The position numbers and the translations under genes were made by a program. The notes beneath the pieces are model-generated. The model was not told where the DNA came from and made no database searches. It was given only the letters and a program-made list of their open reading frames with translations. Positions 3,271-39,353 of a DNA stretch of 43,653 bases are shown here, one piece after another; position 1 is the first letter of the stretch, and the number at the start of each line of letters is the position of its first letter. Origin of the DNA: Alphaproteobacteria bacterium (GTDB lineage Bacteria > Pseudomonadota > Alphaproteobacteria > CACZRW01); contig JAFWAG010000041.1 in the NCBI GenBank assembly GCA_017507765.1, positions 1 to 43,653 of the forward strand, given 5' to 3'.

Positions 3271-3729
3271 ATGAAAACAATTTCAACCAAACCGGCCGAG
3301 GTTGTAAGAAAGTGGTATCTGATTGATGCCGAAGGCTTAGTCCTTGGTCGTCTTGCCAGCCAGATTGCAAAGATTTTGCGCGGCAAGCACAAAGCCACAT
3401 ACACTCCGCACATTGACTGCGGCGATAACGTAATCGTCATCAATGCGGAAAAGGTTCACCTTACCGGCAACAAGCTTATGGATAAGGTATATTATCATCA
3501 CACAGGTTTCCCTGGCGGGATTAAAGGCATTACCGCCGGCAAGCAGTTGGAAGCTCACCCTGAACGTGTTTTAATCAAAGCGGTCGAAAGAATGATTTCC
3601 CGTAACAAGCTTGGCCGTGCCCAGATGACCAAGTTGCACGTTTATGCAGGACCTGAGCATCCTCATGCGGGTCAGGTTCCGGAAGTTTTGGATATTGCCT
3701 CTATGAATCCCAAGAATAAAAGGAGCTAA
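3271..3729 (+). CDS. rplM: 50S ribosomal protein L13
   Basis: The 152-residue product matches L13, an early-assembly protein of the large ribosomal subunit. Recognisable blocks are [19 protein letters not shown] near the N-terminus, [19 protein letters not shown], and the [13 protein letters not shown] and [21 protein letters not shown] regions. Length is normal for alphaproteobacteria. It is followed after 2 bases by rpsI, the usual pairing, and a promoter lies at 3191-3218. L13 is known in some bacteria to regulate its own operon, but no leader structure was identified here. Confidence 0.97.
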
Positions 3730-6655: not shown

Positions 6656-7681
6656 CTAAGTTTGGCAGGTCGGATTGTCTAAGAATATAAGCGGTGCGCC
6701 GGAGTTTTTCTCATTTTTAACCATTACGTTCACGCAATAACGGCGCAAAGGTCCGTCCGAAAGTTTTTGCGGAAGATTCATCGGTTGAGAAGACGGTGTT
6801 AATTCTTCGTCTTCTTCATCTTCTGCTTCTTCGGGACGGAAGAATAAACCGACATTTTGAATAATATCTTTATTCAGTTCTTTTAAATATTCGGTTACGG
6901 ATTTTAACCCGCGGTATTTATTCTTTAAGTCGTTTATCAGATGACTTACGGCAAAATTAGCGACTTCTTCATTCAGTTTATTTATTTCTTCTTGCTGTTC
7001 TTTTTCCCATTTTGGAACGTCTCGGACGGCGACTTCCAATTCTTTTTGGGTCTGATTTAAATCTTCCAGTATTTCCGCCCGTTCTTCTTCGGGTAGGTTA
7101 TCAAAAGCTTCCGGTGTAATTACTTCGCCGTCTTTTGTCGGAGCAACTACCAACCCGACCGGCATACGAAGAACGGAAACATTTTTTCCTTTGGTTTTTA
7201 ATTGCAAGTCATTGAAGTAAGAGGTTTTTTGGTCGTTAAAATGTTCTTCGATAACTTTCAGGCGGTTTTTGTATTCTTCGCCTTCAAAGGCAGCCGGAAT
7301 AACCATTTGCAGACTTTCCAACAGGTTTTCAATGTCTTTGGCGAATACATCGCCTTTTCCCGAAGGAAGGCGCAAAGCCTTTGGTTTATGCGGAGCGTCA
7401 AAATTATTGATATAGCACCAGTCATCAGGGGTTTTTCTGCTTTTTGCCGCTTCGGTAAGCTGGCGTTTTATCAGGCTGGTTTTTCCGGTTCCTTCCGGAC
7501 CTACACAAAAGAGGTTATATCCGTCGGCATTAACATTTATGCAGAAATCAATTGCCACCAAAGCCCGTTCCTGCCCCAACGGAGAGTCCAAGTATTCAAG
7601 TTCGGAAGTTGTCCGAAATTGATTCAATTCGTCATCACAAGGGGTATAAAGTTCATTAACGGATAAAGGGGATACAGTCAT
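6656..7681 (-). CDS. Lon-like AAA protease, N-terminal ATPase portion (frameshifted)
   Basis: Walker A GPEGTGKT is at residues 61-68, after the family-typical LGQERALVAIDFCINVNADGYNLFCVG. A long charged insertion with predicted coiled coil (about 140-290) separates it from the rest, as usual in this family. The frame then ends in IFLDNPTCQT followed by TAG, exactly where relatives continue into the protease half. Joined with 5241-6647 by one inserted base, the protein would be about 813 residues, a normal family length. The start is supported by AGAGGA just before the ATG. All other domains look intact, so the lesion is recent, a sequencing or assembly error, or (less likely) recoding. Confidence 0.85.
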   Translation of the reverse strand: MTVSPLSVNELYTPCDDELNQFRTTSELEYLDSPLGQERALVAIDFCINVNADGYNLFCVGPEGTGKTSLIKRQLTEAAKSRKTPDDWCYINNFDAPHKPKALRLPSGKGDVFAKDIENLLESLQMVIPAAFEGEEYKNRLKVIEEHFNDQKTSYFNDLQLKTKGKNVSVLRMPVGLVVAPTKDGEVITPEAFDNLPEEERAEILEDLNQTQKELEVAVRDVPKWEKEQQEEINKLNEEVANFAVSHLINDLKNKYRGLKSVTEYLKELNKDIIQNVGLFFRPEEAEDEEDEELTPSSQPMNLPQKLSDGPLRRYCVNVMVKNEKNSGAPLIFLDNPTCQT

Positions 7682-17467: not shown

Positions 17468-17619
17468 GATTAAGCCTTACTTTATATTTTTATTTACAAT
17501 TTTAATCCGGCGAGATTAGTACATTTGTAAAAGAGTTTCAAGCCTTGAAGAAAAATCTTACCCCATATATTGCGACGAAAAATCCCCCTAAAGACAGAGT
17601 TACGGAAAGCAAAGCAAAA
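17468..17619. other. Gene-free A/T-rich stretch upstream of gltX
   Basis: This part of the 17468-18256 gap has no credible coding frame. On the minus strand a TTTACA at about 17528-17533 could be a -35 for gltX, but no good -10 at the right spacing was found. Confidence 0.4.
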
Positions 17620-17884
17620 GCGGGGTGCGGCAATGCCAACTTCTGGGCGATTTATTTTACATTATGCTTATTTGGTACTTCACATAAAAACCGCTTTGGT
17701 TTTATCCAAAAGCGGCCAGAAGTTAGAAACCACACAAGAATGGTGCAACATATTTGCCATAGGCTTATTTTGTTACCTTCTGGCCAAAGCACAGAAGAAC
17801 AGTCTTGTGAGAGTTTCTACACCCCCGGCTAACCTTTACTTGATTAACCAAAGAGCATTATAAATAGAAGGAAGGCAAAAGCAA
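17620..17884 (-). repeat. Structured repeat, copy A
   Basis: About 230 bp are nearly identical to copy B (17904-18175) and related to copy C. In plus-strand coordinates the outer stem is GGGGTG 17622-17627 with CACCCC 17820-17825. A 9-bp stem joins 17638-17646 and 17716-17724. A hairpin joins 17691-17699 and 17706-17715. The segment 17714-17722 can instead pair perfectly with 17777-17785. The variable stem pairs 17725-17730 with 17813-17818 and 17733-17739 with 17803-17809. The minus strand has TTGCTT (17879-17884), 16 bases, TATAAT (17857-17862), so it is probably transcribed leftward from about 17850. Confidence 0.8.
17857..17884 (-). promoter_or_regulatory. Promoter of repeat copy A
   Basis: On the minus strand, TTGCTT (plus-strand 17879-17884) with a 16-base spacer and TATAAT (17857-17862) reads into the repeat. 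The same pair is conserved in copy B. Confidence 0.55.
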
Positions 17885-17903
17885 TATAAATTAAAATGAT
17901 TAA

Positions 17904-18175
17904 GCGGGGTGCGGCAATGCCAACTTCTGGGCGATTTATTTTACATTATGCTTATTTGGTTCGTTCACATAAAAACCGCTTTGGTTTTATCCAAAAGCGG
18001 CCAGAAGTTCATAACCATACATCTAAATGGTGCAACATATTCACCATAGGCTTATTTTGTTGCCTTCTGGCCGTACAGCACAGAAGTTTTTTAGATGTAA
18101 GGGTTATGACACCCCCGGCTAACCTTTACTTGATTAACCAAGAAACATTATAGAGCGAAAAAAAGGCAAAAGCAA
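17904..18175 (-). repeat. Structured repeat, copy B
   Basis: A direct repeat of copy A, offset by 284 bp. The conserved parts are the outer stem (17906-17911 with 18110-18115), the 9-bp stem (17922-17930 with 18001-18009) and the alternative pair (17999-18007 with 18064-18072). The variable arms are unrelated in sequence to those of copy A but still complementary: 18010-18016 with 18102-18108 (7 bp) and 18018-18027 with 18090-18099 (10 bp). A short frame through it (starting MIKRGAAMPTSG) is not kept in copy A, where an indel shifts it, so protein coding is not supported. Confidence 0.8.
18147..18175 (-). promoter_or_regulatory. Promoter of repeat copy B
   Basis: On the minus strand, TTGCTT (plus-strand 18170-18175), a 17-base spacer and TATAAT (18147-18152) read leftward into copy B. 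They match the position and sequence of the copy A promoter. Confidence 0.55.
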
Positions 18176-26139: not shown

Positions 26140-26202
26140 GAGCGTGTCCTTTTTATCCCGTTATAGCTGTACTTGACTGGCATACCTCTTAGCCGTAAAA
26201 TC

Positions 26203-26383
26203 TTTCTGTGCTGTAAGGCCAGAAGGCGACAAAATAAGCCTATGGCGAATATGTTGCACCATTACTTCTATGGTTACGAACTTCTGGTCGCTTTCGGATA
26301 AAACCGAAGCGGTTTTTATGTGAAAGAACCAAATAAGCATAATGTAAAATAAAACGCCCGGAAGTCGGCACTGCCCACCCCTT
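26203..26383 (+). repeat. Structured repeat, degenerate copy C
   Basis: The reverse complement matches the core of copies A and B, from the GGGGTG-like end to the CAGCACAGAAA block. The internal hairpin has a compensated change: TTTGG with CCAAA in A/B becomes TTCGG with CCGAA. Other stems are damaged, the variable arm no longer finds its partner, the distal end diverges and the TTGCTT/TATAAT promoter is not kept. It looks like a decayed copy. The 26140-26202 stretch before it holds nothing recognisable. Confidence 0.7.
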
Positions 26384-26399
26384 TATTAAGGCATACCGC

Positions 26400-37353: not shown

Positions 37354-39353
37354 CTACTTCGGCCCACACAGAGCGTAGAAGTGGAAACTGTTACTGACAT
37401 AATTAGTGTTGCGTTTGTACTCTTCCGTATCACTGGTGCCGAGCTTCACAAGCCAACCGTAATCTGTGTTATTATTATAAACGTCCGTACTCCATACCCA
37501 AGAACTATTAAACGGATTGCTGGAGCCTGGATTCCACAATCCAGCTGCTTGTATTGCGGTTCTAGACTGTAATTTCATTCCTATATTATTACAGAATGTT
37601 TCTGATTCCCAATATGTCTTCATTCCGCTTGACTGTATCCAAGCCTTACCATTTATTTCTTGGCATTCACCACCGCTGATTGCGCCAAGTGCGTCGCTTG
37701 GATTTGCCTGAGCATTTGGTGCACATAACGCATAGATGTAGTAAGTACCGCTGGTATCGCCCATTAATTTGTCATAGTTGCTATTGCGGTAGTCCGCATT
37801 CTGTTTACTTGTACCGAACCAAACGCTCCACCCGTAATCAGAGTTATTTTCCCATAAATCCGTTGTCCAATGCCAGTAAGCTACACTGAACGGATTTGAA
37901 CCAGAGTTCCATAACCCTGCCGCCTGTATTGCGGCTCTAGATTGTAATTTCATTCCTATATTACTACAGAACGTTTCGGTTTCCCAATATGTCTTTGGTT
38001 CCGTTGACCGCACCCAAGTTTCGCCGTTGTTGAGAAGTGCACTTTCACCACCTTTTATGCATAACTGTATACGGCCGGAAGTATTAGTAGTTACAAAGTT
38101 TGAAGTTTTATCTCTTGAAGCATCTATTTCGATAATAGAATTACAGCTTCGGTTGATATCGTTAATCCAGCCGTAACGACAAGAGGCAAAAGTTCCATCA
38201 CTTGAGGCATTACACTGGCTGATTACCTCTGCATAAGTAGCAACTCGGCTTCCGGTAAAGACGCAAGGCTGATTGGCGTTATAGGAGCTTTCACCCGTAA
38301 CAAAGCTATAAAAAGCCGTTGGAGCGGAACTCCAGCTGGAGATTATCTTGGAACAATTCGCTGTAATCTTACTGTTTTCCCAATCATAGCGGCGAGCTAT
38401 AGCATCAGTTTTGGCGGCTTCAATTAACTGACTGTTAGTCGGTAATACCCCGTTTACAAAATAACAAGCCCTTTCAACTTGGGTAGTTGCGCTGGTTGTT
38501 ATCGCAAATATTCCCGAAGAGGCGTTAAATCCCGCTCCTTTATATTTCATAGCAATATCCGAACACGAACGGTTCAGATTCTTTTCCCAAGCCTTTGCAC
38601 AAGCTGTCGAATTCGTTACTCCGGCTGCTTTGTCCGCAGTACATTGCGATATTAGTTCTATGGGGTTAAAACTGGCGATATTCCATTCCGATATACATCT
38701 TTCTTCTTCGGGTATATCCGGATTATCAATACAGAGCGTTTTCGCCGTTAAGCGTTCAAATGAAGTGTTTTCAACAATCTCTTTTAACTGCTCTTCATTG
38801 ATGCCAGCAGAAGTATCTTTATCATAAGTAGTAGTTACCACCGGAACGCCGGTGGGCAGAGAGGTAAAGCCGTAATTGGAAACGTCTTCCGCCCAGATGC
38901 CGTTAATTCCCCAAGCTTTAGCGGTATCTTGTGCCGAATATATTCCTGCTGACACGCCAAGCAAAGATGCAACCTTTGCCGCTTTTATATCATTGCCTCC
39001 GCCGCTGGCGGCTATCATGGCATTTATGGTGCCATCATCTTCTTTGCGGATACCTATTTTGTACCCGTCTATATCCACACCGACATCAGTAGGTTCAAGA
39101 AGTGTAGTACCAACGGTAATACTTTCCTTGTTCTCTTCAATATATTCGGTCGTAGCGTTCTTTAACAAAAGCAAAGTGTTTGCTTCGTTAATGTTATCAA
39201 TATCCTGCCTTCGGTCGGCAACGTGTTTATAGAGTACGGGAGTTAAGGAGGCGATAAGGCCTAAAACTATAATGGCTTCGACGGTAATACTGCCGATTTG
39301 AGTGCTATTTTCTAGCGGGGGGGGGTAAACACTTTCAATTTTTTAGAAAACAT
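37354..39353 (-). CDS. Large pilin-like surface protein; start out of frame at a C9 tract
   Basis: From the ATG at 39353, which has GGAG upstream and a strong promoter, the frame reads MFSKKLKVFTPP and then stops after a run of nine C. Adding one C restores one continuous frame of 666 codons. It encodes a leader with G followed by SITVEAIIVLGLIASLTPVL, a type IV prepilin-like cleavage site with Glu at +5 and a hydrophobic helix. The mature part has Cys-rich segments (NRSCSDI, NRSCNSI) and two similar ~100-residue C-terminal modules with TYWE-ETFC-NIGMKLQSR and YALC. These resemble C-type-lectin/DUF1566-like surface modules, by appearance only. As sequenced, no good start exists in the main frame (a TTG at 39174 lacks a ribosome binding site). 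Confidence 0.75.
39317..39325 (-). repeat. Homopolymer C9 tract, likely contingency locus
   Basis: Nine G on the plus strand (C9 in the coding sense) lie 28 bases into the pilin-like gene. Ten C (or seven) would keep the frame open; nine close it within a few codons. Confidence 0.75.

Follow-up and report, generated by a model that had tools for sequence, protein, structure and literature searches.

Elements A and B, which lie in tandem on the minus strand of a 43,653-nucleotide alphaproteobacterial contig (the whole of this stretch is called the window), are very probably stand-alone C4-type antisense RNA genes, each of them specific for itself; we give this reading as a whole a probability of about 0.86. 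C4-type RNAs have been known since the work on phages P1 and P7, and their a1b1 motif is already in Rfam. A and B are not a new RNA category. They are an expanded variant of C4-type antisense control without a2b2 sites, implying that sRNA-Xcc1 is C4-like, and the new non-coding RNA family considered in the original prediction gives way to a layout of the C4/sRNA-Xcc1 type. The structure of the elements, the pairing of guide and target, its specificity, the distribution of the copies and their gene context are all shown by the sequences.

The two elements form a direct repeat, recovered at 17618-17880 and 17902-18170, with repeated blocks that are 79-100% identical, and no gene lies directly behind either of them. 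Element A (17618..17884, minus strand) reads as a C4-type antisense RNA gene complete from promoter to 3' end, and element B (17902..18175, minus strand) as another complete gene of this type in tandem to it. R1, a covariance model built from 26 loci, matches A at 17785-17714 (E=4.8e-17) and B at 18072-17999 (E=5.4e-16). The only Rfam family with a low-E-value match to the element is sRNA-Xcc1 (RF02221), with 35.0 bits for A and 31.6 bits for B, both below the family cut-off of 53 bits. The original prediction had placed here two tandem copies whose differing segments are complementary over 6+7 and 7+10 bp, and its coordinates were exact: in A, AGAAAC-CA-CACAAGA (17725-17739) pairs with TCTTGTG-AGA-GTTTCT (17803-17818), and in B, CATAACC-A-TACATCTAAA pairs with TTTAGATGTA-AG-GGTTATG.

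Read along the minus strand, B begins with a promoter-like TTGCTT...TATAAT (18142..18175), followed by a hairpin, GGGG[TGTCATAA]CCC (18102..18116), that would present target site a1 (TCATAACC, 18102-18109); the layout is that of the pilin-linked and phage loci, which carry GGG[..]CCC and GAGG[cGTCGAAA]CCTC, respectively. Target site b1, TACATCTAAA (18090..18099), is complementary to guide b' at 18018-18027, and the 5' arm of the closing stem, c (GGCCAGAAGG, 18063..18072), is placed by the covariation of c with c' over 26 loci. Guide b' (TTTAGATGTA, 18018..18027) is read as the loop of a hairpin ACCA..TGGT (18014-18031), guide a' (GGTTATGA, 18009..18016) is complementary to a1 at 18102-18109, and stem covariation defines the 3' arm c' (CTTCTGGCC, 17999..18007). 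The proposed terminator, a hairpin CCGCTTTTGG-ATAAAA-CCAAAGCGG followed by TTTTT, occupies 17971..18000. The parts of A on the same strand are a promoter-like sequence (17853-17884), a1 TAGAAAC (17813..17819), b1 CACAAGA (17803..17809), arm c (17776..17785), b' TCTTGTG (17733..17739), a' GTTTCTA (17724..17730), arm c' (17714..17722) and a terminator-like hairpin with TTTTT (17686..17715), arms c and c' being assigned from both stem covariation and sequence and the other parts from sequence. The promoters and terminators are by-eye readings, and an automatic promoter/terminator scan listed neither for A or B.

The RNA domain shows the substitutions of a conserved fold. Across 26 loci 96.1% of cells are paired and 12 of the 18 pairs have changed on both sides, with a covariation score of 0.436 against 0.200 in shuffles and no more than 0.12 for slid structures. 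By family alignment and covariation, c:c' closes off two hairpins, and the loop of the second one varies, as in sRNA-Xcc1. One-sided changes in the stems read as G-U pairs on the window's minus strand but would be A-C mismatches on the opposite one, and so speak for a minus-strand RNA; together with the covariation, this argues for the real structured RNA that had been proposed on that strand.

Complementarity between leader and guide is specific to the locus. When each guide was matched to the regions upstream of 54 other loci, one of these reached the own score of A and none that of B or of D, a further close copy in the genome, so that the arm complementarity noted earlier goes beyond chance. 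In the window's family (28 loci) the mean upstream fit is 13.0 for self and 7.6 for non-self, the largest of 20,000 permutation means being 9.2, and this agrees with the suggestion that the variable stem carries specificity. A further 28 loci from other alphaproteobacteria give 13.9 and 8.3 (permutation maximum 10.1). Downstream, self equals non-self in the window's family (7.61 vs 7.56; P=0.13 in a further test), from which we take a2b2 to be absent there; no downstream guide fit was found in the 28 other alphaproteobacterial loci. Altogether, locus-specific complementarity of a1b1 to a'b' is present in the 51 phage loci described below and is kept by about 53 of the 56 loci from alphaproteobacteria, the exceptions being C, L225 and L287; the arms of other copies, for which the original prediction had asked, are thus complementary as well. 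A two-part pattern search with A, B and D gave no convincing trans target, the 3-5 other matches of each being about as many as expected by chance. The A guide has a 13-bp two-part match within the 5' UTR of an rpe-like gene (L240, G000:C57:30355-30370), which could be fortuitous.

A search of annotated phages and plasmids for the sRNA-Xcc1 consensus returned loci in Aaphi23, Acinetobacter phage 4316, Rac-SA53, Pasteurella Pmp3 and Moraxella Mcat15, among others. In the annotated records inspected, a gene starts about 40-70 nt behind the RNA, in most cases one for Ant, KilA-N or BRO; it is annotated as hypothetical in Mcat15 and in a Nitratidesulfovibrio plasmid. Three sites are related to one another in each phage locus: a1b1, which lies in the leader, a'b', which is part of the RNA, and a2b2 at the ribosome-binding site. 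In Aaphi23 they are TCGAAACCTTACAAACAG, CTGTTTGCGGCTTTCGA and TCGAAAATAACAAACAGGAG, respectively. The record of phage P1 annotates its C4 antisense RNA with the same arrangement. Guides of 51 non-redundant phage loci match their own upstream regions better than those of other loci (12.3 vs 8.3; maximum of 20,000 permutation means 9.26), and the same holds downstream (10.4 vs 7.0; permutation maximum 7.87). The leaders of phage loci L031-L064 have a likely intrinsic terminator (e.g. CCAACCCCGTCAGCGTTGGCTTTTTT) between b1 and the RNA, so guide binding there could also cause premature termination; a GCGG before this likely terminator is paired by the guide as well, suggesting antisense-induced attenuation. 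Phage contig L065 bears tandem sRNA-Xcc1 loci (7043-7066 and 7286-7309, 243 bp apart), with a2b2 and a gene start only behind the second.

The variable arms might instead be only an internal stem of one RNA, forming a pseudoknot with c:c', whose sequence drifts freely and guides nothing. Pairing in cis is always possible, as a1b1 lies upstream on the same transcript, and a2/b2 are absent in this lineage, both of which suit this explanation. However, it leaves unexplained the second, independent target at the phage ribosome-binding site, which tracks the same guide; moreover, the same parts of P1 are annotated as antisense and target sites, b' sits in the loop of its own ACCG..CGG hairpin, and all 28 parsed b1 sequences differ from one another. 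We consider a purely internal stem unlikely. The pairing reported for the variable stem stands, but its two sides are better described as guide and target than as an internal stem only.

Three copies, A, B and C, had originally been recognized, and copies beyond the contig were to be sought with a covariance model. An R1 search finds 26 in this genome; 23 of the 26 loci from which R1 was built come from there and match by construction. Of 289 alphaproteobacterial genomes searched, 31 have matches, and several of these carry 4-9 copies; R1 also recovers the phage sRNA-Xcc1 loci. By blastn, the genome holds four close copies (A, B, C and D), and 58 other genomes hold none; the sequence diverges too fast for blastn, whereas the covariance model did find relatives. 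In A, B and D arm complementarity is kept with different sequences, so that A and B covary as predicted, but C (26178..26384, plus strand; R1 E=4.2e-16) is a decayed copy with an intact RNA domain (26217-26289) and no upstream a1/b1 arm, its self-complementarity of 6.0 being not above non-self.

The RF02221 model marks 12 places in the whole genome (best E=6e-6; best copy 40.5 bits, again below the cut-off). All 12 carry a1b1:a'b' complementarity, a feature outside the RF02221 model, and all have the same order of parts: a GGG-hairpin showing a1, b1, a linker, arm c, an inner helix, a hairpin ACCG-b'-CGG, a' and arm c'. Even the weak matches L024, L025, L027 and L029 are real loci. Could the RNA have evolved independently and merely resemble C4 and sRNA-Xcc1? 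The scores under the cut-off point that way, as does the lack of the core AATACAAtACCCGnAAGGGGAATA in the window copies. We nevertheless judge an independent origin improbable, given six parts in the same order with the same a1 hairpin, the best RF02221 E value genome-wide, reciprocal R1 matches and intermediates in other alphaproteobacteria. One of the weak matches belongs to a second tandem pair of C4-type RNAs (L029/L266, G000:C42:3226-3293 and 3505-3572, 279 bp apart), with a gene behind it that is not pilin-like.

The distribution of the copies also bears on the palindromic mobile DNA element that had been offered as an alternative, in which a folded single strand would be recognized by a transposase or recombinase. 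A-D are similar and dispersed, they have short GGGG..CCCC ends, and tandem copies exist, as such an element might. Yet the pilin-linked and phage copies have no shared ends, copies hold fixed positions before genes, the G-U pairs indicate RNA, and the genome search showed no recombinase of the IS110/Piv type. None of our observations demonstrates a mobile palindrome, and we regard this origin as highly improbable. An IS110/Piv bridge RNA was ruled out by the lack of any PF01548 match in the genome.

Most RNA copies in this genome directly precede genes of a pilin-like family; A, B, C and D precede none. The family has 42 matches in the 1.4-Mb genome, with variable C-terminal parts and a common start, MNRTQxKGSITVEAIVMLG, which we read as type IV prepilin-like (G, then E at +5). 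Regions upstream of these genes fall into two classes, with either the RNA or 7-9 consecutive C immediately behind the start codon. The window itself has a paralogue of the second class (37354..39353, minus strand), assigned in the upstream-class survey, in which a C9 tract (39317-39325) stands where others have the RNA, and the gene is out of frame. Among 12 other poly-C paralogues of the genome (C7-C9), only L205 (C7) has a plausible in-frame start; L203 was not counted because its in-frame ATG meets a stop. The poly-C members are probably subject to slipped-strand phase variation. At pilin-linked loci, arm c' can pair with the TGGGAG of the Shine-Dalgarno sequence over 6.3 bp, against 4.0 bp in shuffles, and this offers a possible route to translation control. 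For a four-part switch c0'-c-c'-SD, the c0':c pairing exceeds that of shuffles less clearly (6.2 vs 4.9) than c':SD does; we rejected the switch, as folding with a1b1 free or blocked had no consistent effect on exposure of the ribosome-binding site or Shine-Dalgarno sequence. Among the genes behind distant alphaproteobacterial copies are those for nucleases of the PD-(D/E)XK, Mrr-like and HNH kinds, one with a weak match to GIY-YIG, and others whose products look, by eye, like lipoproteins or barrel proteins. C4-type RNAs stand directly before the nuclease-like genes at L270, L272, L278, L279 and L285, which are possibly defence or toxic genes.

From these parts we infer transcription of the elements, processing as in the C4 RNA of P1/P7, binding in trans and an effect on expression. 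The promoter would drive a leader showing a1, in a hairpin loop, and b1, and transcription would run on into a domain of roughly 75 nt closed by c:c', where b' would occupy a hairpin loop and a' would adjoin c'. Once released, this domain would bind a1b1 of new transcripts of the same specificity through a' and b', so that each copy would recognize little else but itself. The phage guides also cover a2/b2, at the ribosome-binding site of an antirepressor gene. In this lineage, which lacks a2/b2, no target other than a1b1 of the leader was found, so that most likely the leader itself is what is controlled, through a competition of trans and cis pairing that would decide folding, processing or read-through. 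A, B, C and D may act in trans or be spares. We further suggest, as a speculation with the odds well against it, that each C4-type RNA and its own leader act as a self-specific switch and that about twenty pilin-like genes are turned on and off independently; if true, this would be an RNA counterpart of poly-C phase variation in the same gene family.

Since guide and target are readable from sequence, the model is directly testable. It identifies the widely annotated, unexplained sRNA-Xcc1 as C4-like, with predictable targets, and shows that a device of phage immunity has multiplied in a bacterial genome, with specificities that differ from copy to copy, and is tied to a surface-protein repertoire whose remaining members look phase-variable, with the same device before nuclease genes in other alphaproteobacteria. 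In the open-licence literature we found no description of sRNA-Xcc1 as a C4-type RNA, nor of a chromosomal C4 form without a2b2 and its use before paralogous, partly poly-C-controlled surface proteins; a prior description elsewhere is possible. Among open-licence papers, sRNA-Xcc1 and 'C4 antisense' occur together only in one on Xylella, as separate annotations (PMC12189769).

In phage P1, which matches both RF01695 (C4) and RF03163 (c4-a1b1), the record places a1 at 48255-48261, b1 at 48269-48276, C4 at 48343-48419, a2 at 48423-48429 and b2 at 48452-48459, and the guide pairs with its own leader as in the window's elements. RF01695 has no match in the window or related loci, with the P1 control scoring 68.8. 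The P1 a1b1 leader (L160 531-612) also matches isrK (RF01394) with 35 bits, below the cut-off, and isrK may be related to C4 leaders. The window's elements resemble C4 of P1/P7 in strand and in the order promoter, a1, b1, RNA; in both, b' occupies a hairpin loop and a' precedes the closing arm, in the order b', a', c'. The complementarity of a' and b' to leader a1 and b1 that characterizes C4 is present in A, B and D and lost in C. They differ in that P1 has a2/b2 before icd-ant, whereas the window copies have neither a2/b2 nor a downstream gene; a2 and b2 at a ribosome-binding site are found in the phages and not in the window's lineage. RNase P processing of the C4 precursor has been reported for P1/P7 (Hartmann et al. 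1995, cited in PMC5320573). With sRNA-Xcc1 of Xanthomonas, Xylella and phages, a transcribed RNA of about 88 nt mapped in Xanthomonas (PMC2996969) and present in Xylella as five copies about 380 bp apart (PMC12189769), they share the a1b1/a'b' arrangement seen in 51 phage loci; unlike the phage copies, they have no a2/b2 and no terminator between b1 and c. Finally, the Group 1 sRNAs of Acinetobacter baumannii, an expanded C4-like set reported as processed from longer transcripts (PMC5320573), likewise comprise numerous C4-like RNAs, differing in a', on a single bacterial chromosome.
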